DNA of 35,758 nt. Source: a virus. The stretch lies in IMG/VR virus record IMGVR_UViG_3300032249_000675, positions 1 through 35,758 of that record. The stretch is one strand, 5' to 3'. Below are positions 4,815 through 23,608 of the stretch, in pieces. The position numbers and the translations under genes were made by a program. Each line of letters begins with the position of its first letter. The first letter of the stretch is position 1. A model generated the notes under the pieces. The model was not told the DNA's origin, searched no databases, and saw nothing but the letters and a program-made list of their open reading frames with translations.

Positions 4815-5627
4815 ATGAACGAAGAAACACCAGCATTTAATTTTAGCGAGTTTAAAACTCAATACTTAGGGAATATTCAAGACCCTACCGAAAGGGAAAC
4901 ATTCCAAAAAAATTTAGAGCCGATAAAGGATGTTCAAGGTTTAGTTACGAGTTATGTTCATGCTCAAAAAGCAGTAGGCTCTAAAGTGAATTTACCTAAC
5001 GAAAAATCAGCTCCTGAAGAATGGGATAAATTATTTAATCGCTTAGGCAGACCCGAAAATGCAGATGGCTATGAGATTGAAACGCCTGATTATAAGTTTG
5101 ACGATAATGTTTTAAAAGAAATTAAAAAGGCAGCTCACGAGGCAGGCTTAACTAAGACTCAAGCAAATAAGGTTATCGGCTCTATCGCTAAGATGTCTAG
5201 GGAAGCAATGGAAGTTTTAGAATCCTCTAAAGCAGCACAGTTAGAAGCAGTTAAGGCAGAGCGTAGCAAATGGGAAGATTTATCAACGACTGAAACAAAA
5301 GTTGATTTATTTTTAAAGCAAAATACTAAAAACGTAGAAGATTACGAAAAGCTTAAGAACTTAATTGATACTGATAATAATTTGTTTAAGTTTGTGAAGG
5401 ATGTAGCTTTAACGAATACGCCTAAGGATATCGGGCAAACTCAAGCTAATTTATCAGCTAAAGAAACACCTGAGCAGGTAGCGGGTAGAATATTAAGCGA
5501 TAGAAATAATTTTAATGATTGGTACAATAATGCTGGTCGCAATATGCCTGAAAGCGTAAGAAGGGAATTGCAAGAAGCGATAAATAAATCAAACCCTAAA
5601 GAAATTGCTAAATACATAAGAAAATAA
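4815..5627 (+). CDS. Putative capsid scaffolding protein
   Basis: A 270-residue, highly charged helical protein immediately upstream of the capsid gene, as expected for the internal scaffold that directs prohead assembly and is then expelled. The segment LPNEKSAPEEWDKLFNRLG followed by RPENADGYE (about residues 59-87) is the Gly-Arg-Pro-x-x-x-x-Gly-Tyr type signature common in phage scaffolds. Long coiled-coil-prone helices span roughly 95-165, and a basic C-terminus (KEIAKYIRK) could bind coat protein. An AGGAG ribosome site lies 9 bases before the ATG. Confidence 0.8.
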   Translation: MNEETPAFNFSEFKTQYLGNIQDPTERETFQKNLEPIKDVQGLVTSYVHAQKAVGSKVNLPNEKSAPEEWDKLFNRLGRPENADGYEIETPDYKFDDNVLKEIKKAAHEAGLTKTQANKVIGSIAKMSREAMEVLESSKAAQLEAVKAERSKWEDLSTTETKVDLFLKQNTKNVEDYEKLKNLIDTDNNLFKFVKDVALTNTPKDIGQTQANLSAKETPEQVAGRILSDRNNFNDWYNNAGRNMPESVRRELQEAINKSNPKEIAKYIRK

Positions 5628-5634
5628 AGAAATT

Positions 5635-5663
5635 TTGAATCTTTATTAAAAATAGTGTAATAT
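5635..5663 (+). promoter_or_regulatory. Sigma70-like promoter of the capsid gene
   Basis: TTGAAT at 5635-5640 is separated by 17 bases from TAATAT at 5658-5663. The -10 is preceded by an extended TG at 5656-5657. Predicted transcription starts near 5670, giving a leader of about 125 bases before the capsid ATG. It lies just downstream of the scaffold stop codon. Confidence 0.65.
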
Positions 5664-5675
5664 ATAATTAATTCT

Positions 5676-5772
5676 CAATGAATCCGCTAGCGGGTAGTTC
5701 ATTGTTTAAGAATCCGTGTTACGGGTAGTTCTTGCTAGAAGAAATTAGTTATACGTTACTCTTTTGAGTAAC
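5676..5772 (+). promoter_or_regulatory. Structured capsid mRNA leader: two covarying hairpins plus a third
   Basis: Hairpin 1 (5676-5704) has arms CAATGAA and TTCATTG around CCG-CTAG-CGG. Hairpin 2 (5708-5733) has arms AAGAA and TTCTT around CCG-TGTTA-CGG. Both carry the same asymmetric internal loop, a single T on the 5' side and GTAG on the 3' side. The outer stems differ but remain paired, so structure is conserved rather than sequence alone. A third hairpin (5755-5772) is GTTACTC-TTTT-GAGTAAC. An AGAGG ribosome site (5784-5788) follows, 6 bases before the ATG. The role (translational operator or stability element) is inferred. Confidence 0.75.
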
Positions 5773-5794
5773 ACAAATTTAATAGAGGTAAATA

Positions 5795-6810: not shown

Positions 6811-6844
6811 AAAACCCTCGGCATAAACCCCGAGGGTTTTTTTT
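6811..6844 (+). terminator. Intrinsic terminator after the capsid gene
   Basis: A perfect 11-base stem (AAAACCCTCGG at 6811-6821 and CCGAGGGTTTT at 6830-6840), an 8-base loop and eight consecutive T residues (6837-6844). It ends the capsid transcript and insulates it from the tail operon. The A-run on the 5' side means it could also work on the minus strand. Confidence 0.92.
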
Positions 6845-6853
6845 GTTACTCAT

Positions 6854-6917
6854 AACTCTATAGCTGACTATAGAGTTTAATAAGTCTATAGTCCACTATA
6901 GAGTTTAAGGGTATAAT
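6854..6917 (+). promoter_or_regulatory. Tail-operon promoter with two CTATAG dyads
   Basis: Dyad A is CTATAG-CTGA-CTATAG (6858-6873); its flanks extend the inverted repeat to 10 bases per arm (6854-6863 with 6868-6877). Dyad B is CTATAG-TCCA-CTATAG (6886-6901). Both are followed by AGTTTAA and lie 28 bases apart. TATAAT sits at 6912-6917, exactly 10 bases after dyad B. No -35 consensus exists at the proper distance; dyad B occupies that place. This looks like an activator-dependent or repressor-controlled late promoter. The ATG follows the -10 by six bases, implying a leaderless message. Confidence 0.7.
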
Positions 6918-22089: not shown

Positions 22090-22605
22090 ATGAAAGTTGC
22101 AAACATGAAAACGAAAAGAAAAAAAGATTATACGCAAGAGTTGTATTTTGATGTCATTGAGGAAATCAAAAGGCAATATGGAGATGGTATTTTTAGGGAA
22201 AAGCCTAATCTATTCGCTCAAGTGGCTGAGCTAATTAATGAAGGTAAGCCAACGCAAGAAACTAAAATCGAAAAAAGAAGACAAACCCGTATAGAGAATC
22301 TCCAGAAAATTAAGCCTTTGCCTGTTTGGACTGGCAGAAGAACGACTATTTTAAAGCCCGAAAGCCAAGCGGTGAAAGACTGTATTTTAAAGTTAGGTGC
22401 TAATGGCGTATGGTTCACAAGATCGGAAGCAAAGGAAGCGATTAAATCTGTTTTAACTAATTTGGATAATATAGATAGCACTATTCATTCACAGCTTGTA
22501 GTTCTACAAAAACATGGGATTATCAAGAAGGTTGGAGAAGGTAAAAGTAAGGTTAGTACTACAGGCAAGAAGAAGATTAACTATTATGCTTTGGTGCAAG
22601 CATGA
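22090..22605 (+). CDS. Basic winged-helix-like DNA-binding protein (putative regulator)
   Basis: A 171-residue basic protein. The last ~80 residues (from SQAVKDCILKLGANGVWFT through VVLQKHGIIKKVGEGKSK) have the helix-helix-helix-wing pattern of winged-helix domains, with KKINYYALV as the final strand. The N-terminus is Lys-rich. An internal ATG at 22105 is an alternative start. It overlaps the methyltransferase by four bases (ATGA) and lacks a ribosome site. It may regulate this phage's promoters, assist the methyltransferase or control the host; the family is not named with confidence. Confidence 0.6.
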   Translation: MKVANMKTKRKKDYTQELYFDVIEEIKRQYGDGIFREKPNLFAQVAELINEGKPTQETKIEKRRQTRIENLQKIKPLPVWTGRRTTILKPESQAVKDCILKLGANGVWFTRSEAKEAIKSVLTNLDNIDSTIHSQLVVLQKHGIIKKVGEGKSKVSTTGKKKINYYALVQA

Positions 22606-23465
22606 GAGTCTTAAGTCTATTTGATGGCTGCGGCATGTGCTATCAAGCTCTTAAAGATTCTGAGATAGAGGTATCTGATTATTATGCTTCTGAAATAGAT
22701 AAGTTTGCTATTAAGATAGCTTTAAAGAATCACCCGGGCATCGTGCAGGTGGGGGATATAACATTGCTAGATGATGGAAAGTTAGCCTCTCTTGGGGAGA
22801 TAGATTTGCTTTGTGCTGGCTTTCCTTGTACAAGCTTATCCATCGCAGCAAGGCAAAAAGAATCAGGCTTAGAAAAAGGGCAGTCTACTTTATTTTACGA
22901 GGCTTTAAGAGTCATTAAAACAGTAAAGCCTAAGTATTTTTTAGTTGAGAATGTGGCTTCAATGAAAAATATAGATAAAGATAAAATCTCAGAAGCTTTA
23001 GGAGTGGAGCCTATTATGATTAATTCAGCTTTGCTTACGGCTCAATCGAGAAAAAGATATTACTGGACGAATATTTCTAATGTGTCTCAACCGGAAGATA
23101 AAGGTGTTTTGTTAAAAGATATACTAGAAAGCGGATTTACTAATAGAGATAAATCATTATGCGTTACGGCTACTTACGCCCGGGCTTGTCCTAATGATTA
23201 TTTCTTGCATTCAAATAGGCAAATGATATTCACTGAAAAGCCTACATTCTTTACCGAGTTCGAGTTATCCTGCAAGAGTCCAGAAAAATATATAGCCGAA
23301 AATTTAAAGCCTATAATGAGAAGGCTGTTTATAACTGAATGCGAAAAGTTGCAGGGCTTACCGGGGGGATATACAGAAGGTGTTAGCGAGACTCAAAGGT
23401 ACAAGATGATAGGCAACGGCTTCACTGTACCCGTGATCTCTCATATTCTGCAAAACTTATGTTAA
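22602..23465 (+). CDS. DNA cytosine-C5 methyltransferase
   Basis: Transfers methyl from S-adenosylmethionine to C5 of cytosine in DNA. A 287-residue enzyme with motif I LSLFDGCG (residues 4-11), the catalytic GFPCTS loop with Cys76, ENV at 115-117, QSRKRYYW at 148-155 and a C-terminal RYKMIGNGFTVPV. All core motifs are present, and the target-recognition region between about 165 and 230 is short, as in compact phage enzymes. No restriction endonuclease is recognisable nearby, so it is probably an orphan enzyme protecting phage DNA or altering regulation. It is translationally coupled to the preceding gene. Confidence 0.93.
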   Translation: MRVLSLFDGCGMCYQALKDSEIEVSDYYASEIDKFAIKIALKNHPGIVQVGDITLLDDGKLASLGEIDLLCAGFPCTSLSIAARQKESGLEKGQSTLFYEALRVIKTVKPKYFLVENVASMKNIDKDKISEALGVEPIMINSALLTAQSRKRYYWTNISNVSQPEDKGVLLKDILESGFTNRDKSLCVTATYARACPNDYFLHSNRQMIFTEKPTFFTEFELSCKSPEKYIAENLKPIMRRLFITECEKLQGLPGGYTEGVSETQRYKMIGNGFTVPVISHILQNLC

Positions 23466-23521: not shown

Positions 23522-23608
23522 GGGCAGGTGTCCGAGTGGTTAATGGAGATAGACTGTAAATCTATTGGCTTTTTGTCTACGCTGGTTCAAATCCAGCTCT
23601 GCCCACCA
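23522..23608 (+). tRNA. tRNA-Tyr (anticodon GUA)
   Basis: An 87-base tRNA. Acceptor strand GGGCAGG pairs with TCTGCCC, with discriminator A and an encoded CCA. The anticodon stem ATAGA/TCTAT closes the loop CTGTAAA (anticodon GTA). A long variable arm, as in bacterial tRNA-Tyr, and a T-arm GCTGG-TTCAAAT-CCAGC are present. It could supplement host tRNA for the Tyr-rich phage proteins or mark an integration site, although no integrase is seen. Confidence 0.95.

Follow-up and report, generated by a model that had tools for sequence, protein, structure and literature searches.

To our knowledge, the control of capsid dosage in tailed double-stranded DNA (dsDNA) phages is little understood and is not usually ascribed to specific RNA sites. 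Does the capsid leader of the 35,758-base virus record IMGVR_UViG_3300032249_000675 (hereafter, the window), which represents a podovirus-type phage with a PF19821 capsid, carry such sites? Two hairpins with the same asymmetric internal loop follow each other in this leader, and the original prediction held that the loop is recognized by a protein.

Two tandem hairpins in a capsid leader

The late block of the window is of the podovirus type and comprises terminase, portal (phrog_332), scaffold/protease, capsid (PF19821), and tail tubular A and B genes. Both hairpins were found with the coordinates and sequences originally given, in the sequence as well as in the minimum-free-energy fold of positions 5676 to 5733 (z = -2.4), and the T versus GTAG internal loop described for them was correct (Table 1). 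Folding of positions 5640 to 5780 yielded a z score of -3.4, with 0 shuffles folding as well. In addition, the pattern AATCCG N3-12 CGGGTAGTT has two matches in the window and 0 in 100 shuffles.

Table 1. Features of the capsid gene region in the window
Feature	Position	Strand	Basis or remark
Scaffold/protease-like gene, immediately 5' of the leader	4815..5627	+	
Promoter-like -10 TATAAT (in GTGTAATATATAAT), weak -35	5663..5668	+	~7 nt 5' of hairpin 1
Hairpin 1, N topology: CAATGAA-U-CCG(CUAG)CGG-GUAG-UUCAUUG	5676..5704	+	sequence, fold
Module 1, 1-nt strand (U)	5683..5683	+	
Module 1, 4-nt strand GUAG	5694..5697	+	
Hairpin 2, N topology: AAGAA-U-CCGU(GUU)ACGG-GUAG-UUCUU	5708..5733	+	sequence, fold
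Module 2, 1-nt strand (U)	5713..5713	+	
Module 2, 4-nt strand GUAG	5725..5728	+	
Plain hairpin GUUACUC-UUUU-GAGUAAC, between modules and ribosome site	5755..5772	+	
Likely ribosome-binding site AGAGG	5784..5788	+	
Major capsid protein, PF19821 Phage_capsid_2 / phrog_3437, 325 aa	5795..6772	+	homology, PF19821 3.5e-36
Strong intrinsic terminator, immediately 3' of the capsid gene	6811..6840	+	

Hairpin 2 stops approximately 50 nt 5' of the likely ribosome-binding site and leaves it uncovered, and across most leaders the modules end approximately 30 to 60 nt upstream of the capsid start codon. Because of these distances, direct blocking of the ribosome site by occlusion of the Shine-Dalgarno sequence is unlikely. 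A leader attenuator was rejected as well, since a scan of the window between the modules and the capsid gene flags the module hairpins alone and no convincing intrinsic terminator, as was an RNase III-type processing site, for which the stems are too short, judged from general knowledge. The plain hairpin is conserved in near relatives only and lies outside the tandem-module family.

The promoter-like TATAAT would place the transcript start approximately 0 to 5 nt before hairpin 1. The promoter match in the window itself is no better than in shuffles; strong matches are found in leaders L209 and L272 and in phages ZP6 and phiVC8. A good promoter lies directly before the modules in 6 of 27 leaders, at a score cutoff passed by 2.7% of shuffles. 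Several relatives share with the window a terminator directly 3' of the capsid gene.

Further elements were observed nearby or elsewhere in these genomes. Two inverted repeats around CTATAG at positions 6855 to 6905 of the window, between the capsid-gene terminator and a TATAAT before the ATG of the tail gene (6924), are a possible operator or tail promoter. In Vibrio phages phiVC8 and VP5 (L237/L238), a 14-bp inverted repeat 5' of the capsid gene (GTGTTCTCCCTATG..CATAGGGAGAACAC), annotated as a terminator in phiVC8, encloses the -10 element of the capsid promoter. A tRNA-Tyr gene (gta) at positions 23522 to 23608 of the window, at the end of the late block and near a C5-cytosine methylase gene (22602 to 23465), could serve host assignment.

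Recurrence of the module before PF19821 capsid genes

A capsid homology search retrieved IMG/VR contigs at 94 to 99%, 72 to 73%, 59%, and 55% identity to the window capsid. The leaders of near-copy contigs are identical in kind to that of the window, and diverged contigs show new stems and apical loops around a retained internal loop. Modules read in these leaders include those of L019 (CCAG-T-CC(GAAA)GG-GTAG-CTGG and GTGAAG-T-CC(GAAA)GG-GTAG-CTTTAC), L022 (AAG-T-CTG(TATGT)CAG-GTAG-CTT), and L023 (CTG-T-CCTG(CTTG)CAGG-GTAA-CAG and TATAG-C-CCC(TTAAT)GGG-ATAA-CTATA). Single-query capsid scans with L022 and L023 returned the same contigs again and nothing further. Near-identical contigs were taken as one lineage, and the shuffle and bulge tests did not count them separately.

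The module has two topologies, N (the window form), in which the 4-nt strand lies 3', and P (the ZP6 form), in which the strands are exchanged and the 4-nt strand lies 5'; the two are related by circular permutation. Alteromonas phage ZP6 has the strands exchanged in both modules (PP; CGG-GTAG-CC(ATAG)GG-T-CCG and AAATTCAG-GTAG-CC(ACTA)GG-T-CTGAGTTT), and Vibrio phages phiVC8, VP5, and K300 carry a P module followed by an N module, in phiVC8 GAGG-GTAG-CGGA(AACT)TCCG-T-CCTC (P) and GAG-T-CCG(GAAA)CGG-GTAG-CTC (N). L209 is NN and K300 is PN, with capsids that are 53% identical. Since the topologies differ among ZP6, the Vibrio phages, and L209, the hairpin is rewirable while the internal loop persists. 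Together with Yersinia phage YeP5, ZP6 and the three Vibrio phages are the cultured examples. The leader of one contig (L256; IMGVR_UViG_3300017992_000381) has three modules (PPN) instead of two.

The pair therefore recurs, beyond what the original prediction saw, before the capsid genes of diverged phages with other stems, loops, and topology. When further examples upstream of capsid genes were sought as a check on that prediction, many more were found, nearly all before PF19821 capsid genes. The recurrent module is a predicted 1x4 internal loop, U versus GNNG or C versus ANNA, with a G-C pair on one side and freely covarying stems. Sequence comparison shows this RNA module twice in the leader of the capsid mRNA, retained when stems and apical loops are replaced and when the strands are exchanged.

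A gene-blind test, in which two tandem patterns ignorant of genes were run through IMG/VR, sampled the GUAG/U class. Of the 46 stretches that were examined, folding gave two or more GUAG/U modules in 31, and a PF19821-capsid-like open reading frame (ORF) lies immediately downstream in 30 of these 31 versus 1 of the 15 other stretches (L252), counts that take in the near-identical relatives of the window. New distant contigs with the pair are L199, L201, L209, L211, and L255 to L259 (L261 repeats L259), and all nine newly found capsids tested belong to PF19821. The exception, L194 (2001 to 2041, minus strand), has two GUAG/U N modules within the initial codons of an ORF that resembles a scaffold gene and comes from another phage type, a match that may be due to chance.

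In an unbiased test, 44 leaders were chosen by capsid homology alone, the window excluded, and scanned with a general descriptor (stem, 1x4 loop, stem; score 9). At least two modules were present in 22 leaders, versus a shuffle mean of 0.7 (maximum of 3 in 30 rounds); the remaining half show no pair at this threshold, which counts against our best explanation. In a stricter test, at least two strict modules occurred in 11 of 12 leaders, some of them found by motif, versus 0 in 2,400 shuffles.

The composition of the loop is equally restricted. When the single base and the opening base of the 4-nt strand were tallied together, just 2 of the 16 possible combinations, C/A (25 versus 2.2) and U/G (25 versus 1.3), showed strong enrichment, with G/A (7 versus 1.5) next. 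When bulge lengths of 0 to 6 were compared, 3 nt stood out (50 versus 3.0), with a lesser excess at 4 (17 versus 2.7). Joint counts against expectation are 24 versus 0.5 for U with G..G and 19 versus 0.8 for C with A..A, a three-position covariation compatible with either a base triple or a wobble-shaped pair. A G-C pair precedes the first purine on its 5' side in 73 of 80 modules. Stem covariation in 43 aligned N modules, from which a few chance-looking automatic modules were omitted, equals 0.594, versus 0.230 after shuffling and no more than 0.203 with the structure slid; the pairing of the inner three outer pairs is partly selected because the descriptor required it, and the covarying positions include the two outermost pairs, which it left free.

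Whole-genome scans under a same-bulge rule covered the window, phiVC8, K300, YeP5, ZP6, HTVC010P, and HK022. The window, phiVC8, K300, and YeP5 each have one same-bulge pair, sited in the capsid leader. The scan of ZP6 gave the capsid-leader pair and two other same-bulge pairs, and the only such pair in HTVC010P is unrelated and on the minus strand. In five phages of the PELAGIPHAGES group (HTVC010P, HTVC034P, HTVC203P, Lederberg, and Greip), a common P module, C/ACAA, was found, together with a second N module, C/ANAA, that was read by eye, has one outer-stem mismatch, and falls below the acceptance of the automatic scan (in Lederberg, C-CUGUC(ACUC)GACAG-AGAA-C). These second modules are suggestive only; pelagiphages related to HTVC010P are probably among the cultured carriers.

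Phages Piluca and TPWB-05, with PF19821-type capsids, have leaders of at most 12 nt and no modules, which also counts against our best explanation, and no clear pair was found on scanning leaders L275, L278, L287, and L288. A cellular origin of the pair was rejected, as the GUAG/U pattern, run against the genomes of 84,980 species of bacteria and archaea, matched two stretches, neither with a tandem pair.

Bulge classes and candidate binders

Within the module, we define the bulge as the three bases that follow the first one in the 4-nt strand. UAG is the most common bulge, and the class differs by lineage: UAA occurs in L023, CAA/UAA in Baldr and ct3Et533, UAC twice in YeP5, UCG/UUG in L285, CUA/UUA in L283, and GUA twice in L268. 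Bulges agree far better within than between leaders (Hamming distance of 0.63 versus 1.19, P < 5e-5; 1.33 versus 1.88, P = 0.004, with UAG pairs removed), in a permutation test that leaves kinship between leaders in and takes in a few automatically picked modules that are probably chance. The matching bulges are unlikely to result from simple duplication, since stems and often topology differ within a leader. Sister capsids with different classes have changed both sites (L022/L023, L277/L283, and L268/L274, the first module of L274, U/AUCG, being read by eye). Among Vibrio phages, phiVC8 and K300 have UAG and 1.182.O has UAC, with one module of 1.182.O from the automatic scan and a second, long-looped one read by eye. 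Because Vibrio phages show two classes, the loop class follows the phage rather than the host.

The proposed recognition of the loop has gained support. As the loop persists through circular permutation, covaries at three positions (U with G..G, C with A..A), and has paired bulges that change in concert, a specific trans partner is indicated. The joint change of both bulges and the two loop classes of Vibrio phages, like the linkage to one gene family and the lineage-specific loop class, point to a phage-encoded, co-evolving factor. Our preferred reading, held tentatively and as somewhat short of probable, is that the modules would be two sites for one trans-acting, co-evolving, probably phage-encoded binder, most likely a head-assembly protein, that controls capsid synthesis. 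The internal loop, rather than the hairpin as such, would be the binding site, and the factor would use it twice, which makes dimeric or cooperative binding probable. As a capsid or scaffold protein, it would match capsid synthesis to head assembly. Its target may be ribosome entry, at the stretch free of structure that separates module 2 from the Shine-Dalgarno site, or, alternatively, the stability of the capsid message or early elongation.

A head-assembly protein under autogenous control is an economical guess; capsid, scaffold, or another protein may be the binder. Both capsid and scaffold proteins are acidic (pI of about 5), which counts against this explanation. Bulge-class labels are weakly clustered on the capsid tree (20 of 200 shuffles equally low, all classes together), a comparison that neither confirms nor excludes the capsid as putative binder. 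A phylogenetic profile was uninformative: a small conserved gene, located between the portal and scaffold genes, also occurs in the module-free Piluca and TPWB-05, and gene content consequently singled out no binder.

Alternatively, a host factor for translation, RNA decay, or RNA chaperoning could recognize the modules and raise capsid translation. The position of the modules just 5' of the ribosome landing stretch and the presence of the UAG class in phages of several hosts agree with this idea, which we consider unlikely given the two loop classes in Vibrio phages and the lack of a cellular original in the species genomes scanned with the GUAG/U pattern.

The main rival having a named mechanism is a factor-independent antiterminator. 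In phage HK022, two put stem-loops in the nascent phage transcript bring about factor-independent antitermination via the host RNA polymerase (PMC9378689). A put-like two-hairpin RNA binding the polymerase to pass terminators, e.g., the one after the capsid gene, would suit the size of the pair (two tandem irregular stem-loops of ~60 to 70 nt), its proximity to strong promoters in several phages, and the terminator of the window and several relatives. However, that terminator has been retained, as for a deliberately separate transcript, a good promoter is missing before some leaders, and whole-genome scans located the pair only at the capsid gene and not at early promoters or other operons. 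Binding to a host polymerase surface is also hard to square with a loop class that varies among phages of one host genus. In HK022, the early control region, in which the put sites were not placed base by base, has no same-bulge 1x4 loop pair (one likely chance pair lies in gene O). This mechanism fits less well than a trans-acting binder and is decidedly unlikely.

Quite improbable, and again fitting less well than a trans-acting binder, is a 5' stabilizer, in which the hairpins, whatever their structure, would guard the capsid mRNA against 5'-end-dependent decay. Hairpins at the predicted 5' end in many phages, a terminator hairpin at the 3' end, and the large demand for capsid, known in general, are compatible with it, but it leaves the strict 1x4 loop, the three-position covariation, the permutation, and the matching bulges of each leader unexplained, and some pairs have no detectable promoter. 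A DNA-level operator or promoter part with an incidental RNA fold is very improbable: the pair adjoins a promoter, hairpin 2 was taken for a promoter in the annotation of phiVC8 (PMC4802629), and phiVC8 and VP5 have the DNA inverted repeat around the -10 element, but the signatures are those of RNA, as stems vary yet pair, U.G and C.A interchange, and the loop asymmetry is constant.

With the trans-acting binder preferred, a fuller proposal can be formulated, namely that, in dsDNA tailed phages with PF19821 capsids, a capsid or scaffold protein would grip a permutable loop pair and in this way regulate the phage's capsid synthesis, with a bulge-triplet code that drifts at both sites together as this protein evolves, in a system extending to pelagiphages. 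We regard this combination as rather unlikely; if true, RNA control of capsid synthesis would extend to pelagiphages, among the most abundant marine viruses. As a candidate for such control, the modules are widespread and open to testing in phages that can be cultured (ZP6, phiVC8, VP5, K300, YeP5, and probably HTVC010P relatives). Paired sites whose specificity differs by lineage would form a natural set of RNA-protein recognition variants, and RNA structural studies gain a new target in a module that is preserved when circularly permuted.

Relation to annotated and known RNA elements

The original statement that no named RNA motif has this form agrees with Rfam 15, in which the window and 15 relatives matched no family at or above the gathering threshold, nor at a permissive threshold. 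A literature search, for which subscription journals were mostly out of reach, returned no description of tandem modules. We file the tandem capsid-leader modules as a new family among leader RNA elements, defined by two GNNG/U or ANNA/C modules upstream of a PF19821 capsid gene, a definition that includes the window.

One hairpin was seen earlier without being recognized. The phiVC8/OVC8 paper gives hairpin 2 as predicted promoter 2 (AGAGTCCGGA-AACGGGTA-GCTC...) (PMC4802629), and this "promoter" of phiVC8 ORF8 is the second hairpin. In NC_027118 (L248), the "promoter" annotated at positions 5551 to 5601 is hairpin 2 of the capsid leader and thus probably misannotated. Other record peculiarities concern phages Baldr and Hodr, whose locus tags are apparently swapped between OQ414636 and OQ414635, and JSF9 (KY883656, L246), for which the record gives the capsid ORF from an internal start (1218) alone; the homologous reading continues upstream in two pieces, through a possible frameshift or record error.

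Among known systems, the put elements of HK022 resemble the modules in length (~60 to 70 nt), two adjacent irregular stem-loops, non-canonical pairs, and a place in a phage leader near a promoter, and the window leader also offers two stem-loops of about 70 nt in total in the nascent transcript. The put elements lie at the early promoters PL and PR, are fixed in sequence, contain a triplex in stem I, and suppress termination by binding the beta' zinc-binding domain with no need for a phage protein, whereas the modules occur at the late capsid gene only, as two copies of one 1x4 loop with interchangeable topology and lineage-specific bulges.

In mini-ykkC and other tandem-hairpin motifs, the conserved part is the apical loop. 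The modules also consist of two similar tandem hairpins, but their apical loops are free, the internal loop is conserved, and Rfam gives no match. The kink-turn, or L7Ae site, is a portable protein-binding module with a 3-nt bulge in an asymmetric internal loop. Its tandem sheared G.A pairs after the bulge are absent from the modules, the aligned N type included; the pair 3' of the module bulge is Watson-Crick, as the descriptor required, and mostly C-G (55 of 80). In ribosomal protein leaders (L1, L10, S8, and S15), an asymmetric internal loop is the specific protein site for autogenous control; the modules differ from these in having no Rfam match at the gathering threshold and no tandem copies in cellular genomes searched with the GUAG/U pattern. 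The coat operators of RNA phages (MS2/R17, PP7, and Qbeta) are hairpins with an unpaired purine-containing bulge through which the coat protein controls translation. These operators are single hairpins over the replicase start site, whereas the capsid-leader modules, with their putative binder, are tandem, belong to dsDNA phages, and lie upstream of, rather than over, the start of the capsid gene itself.
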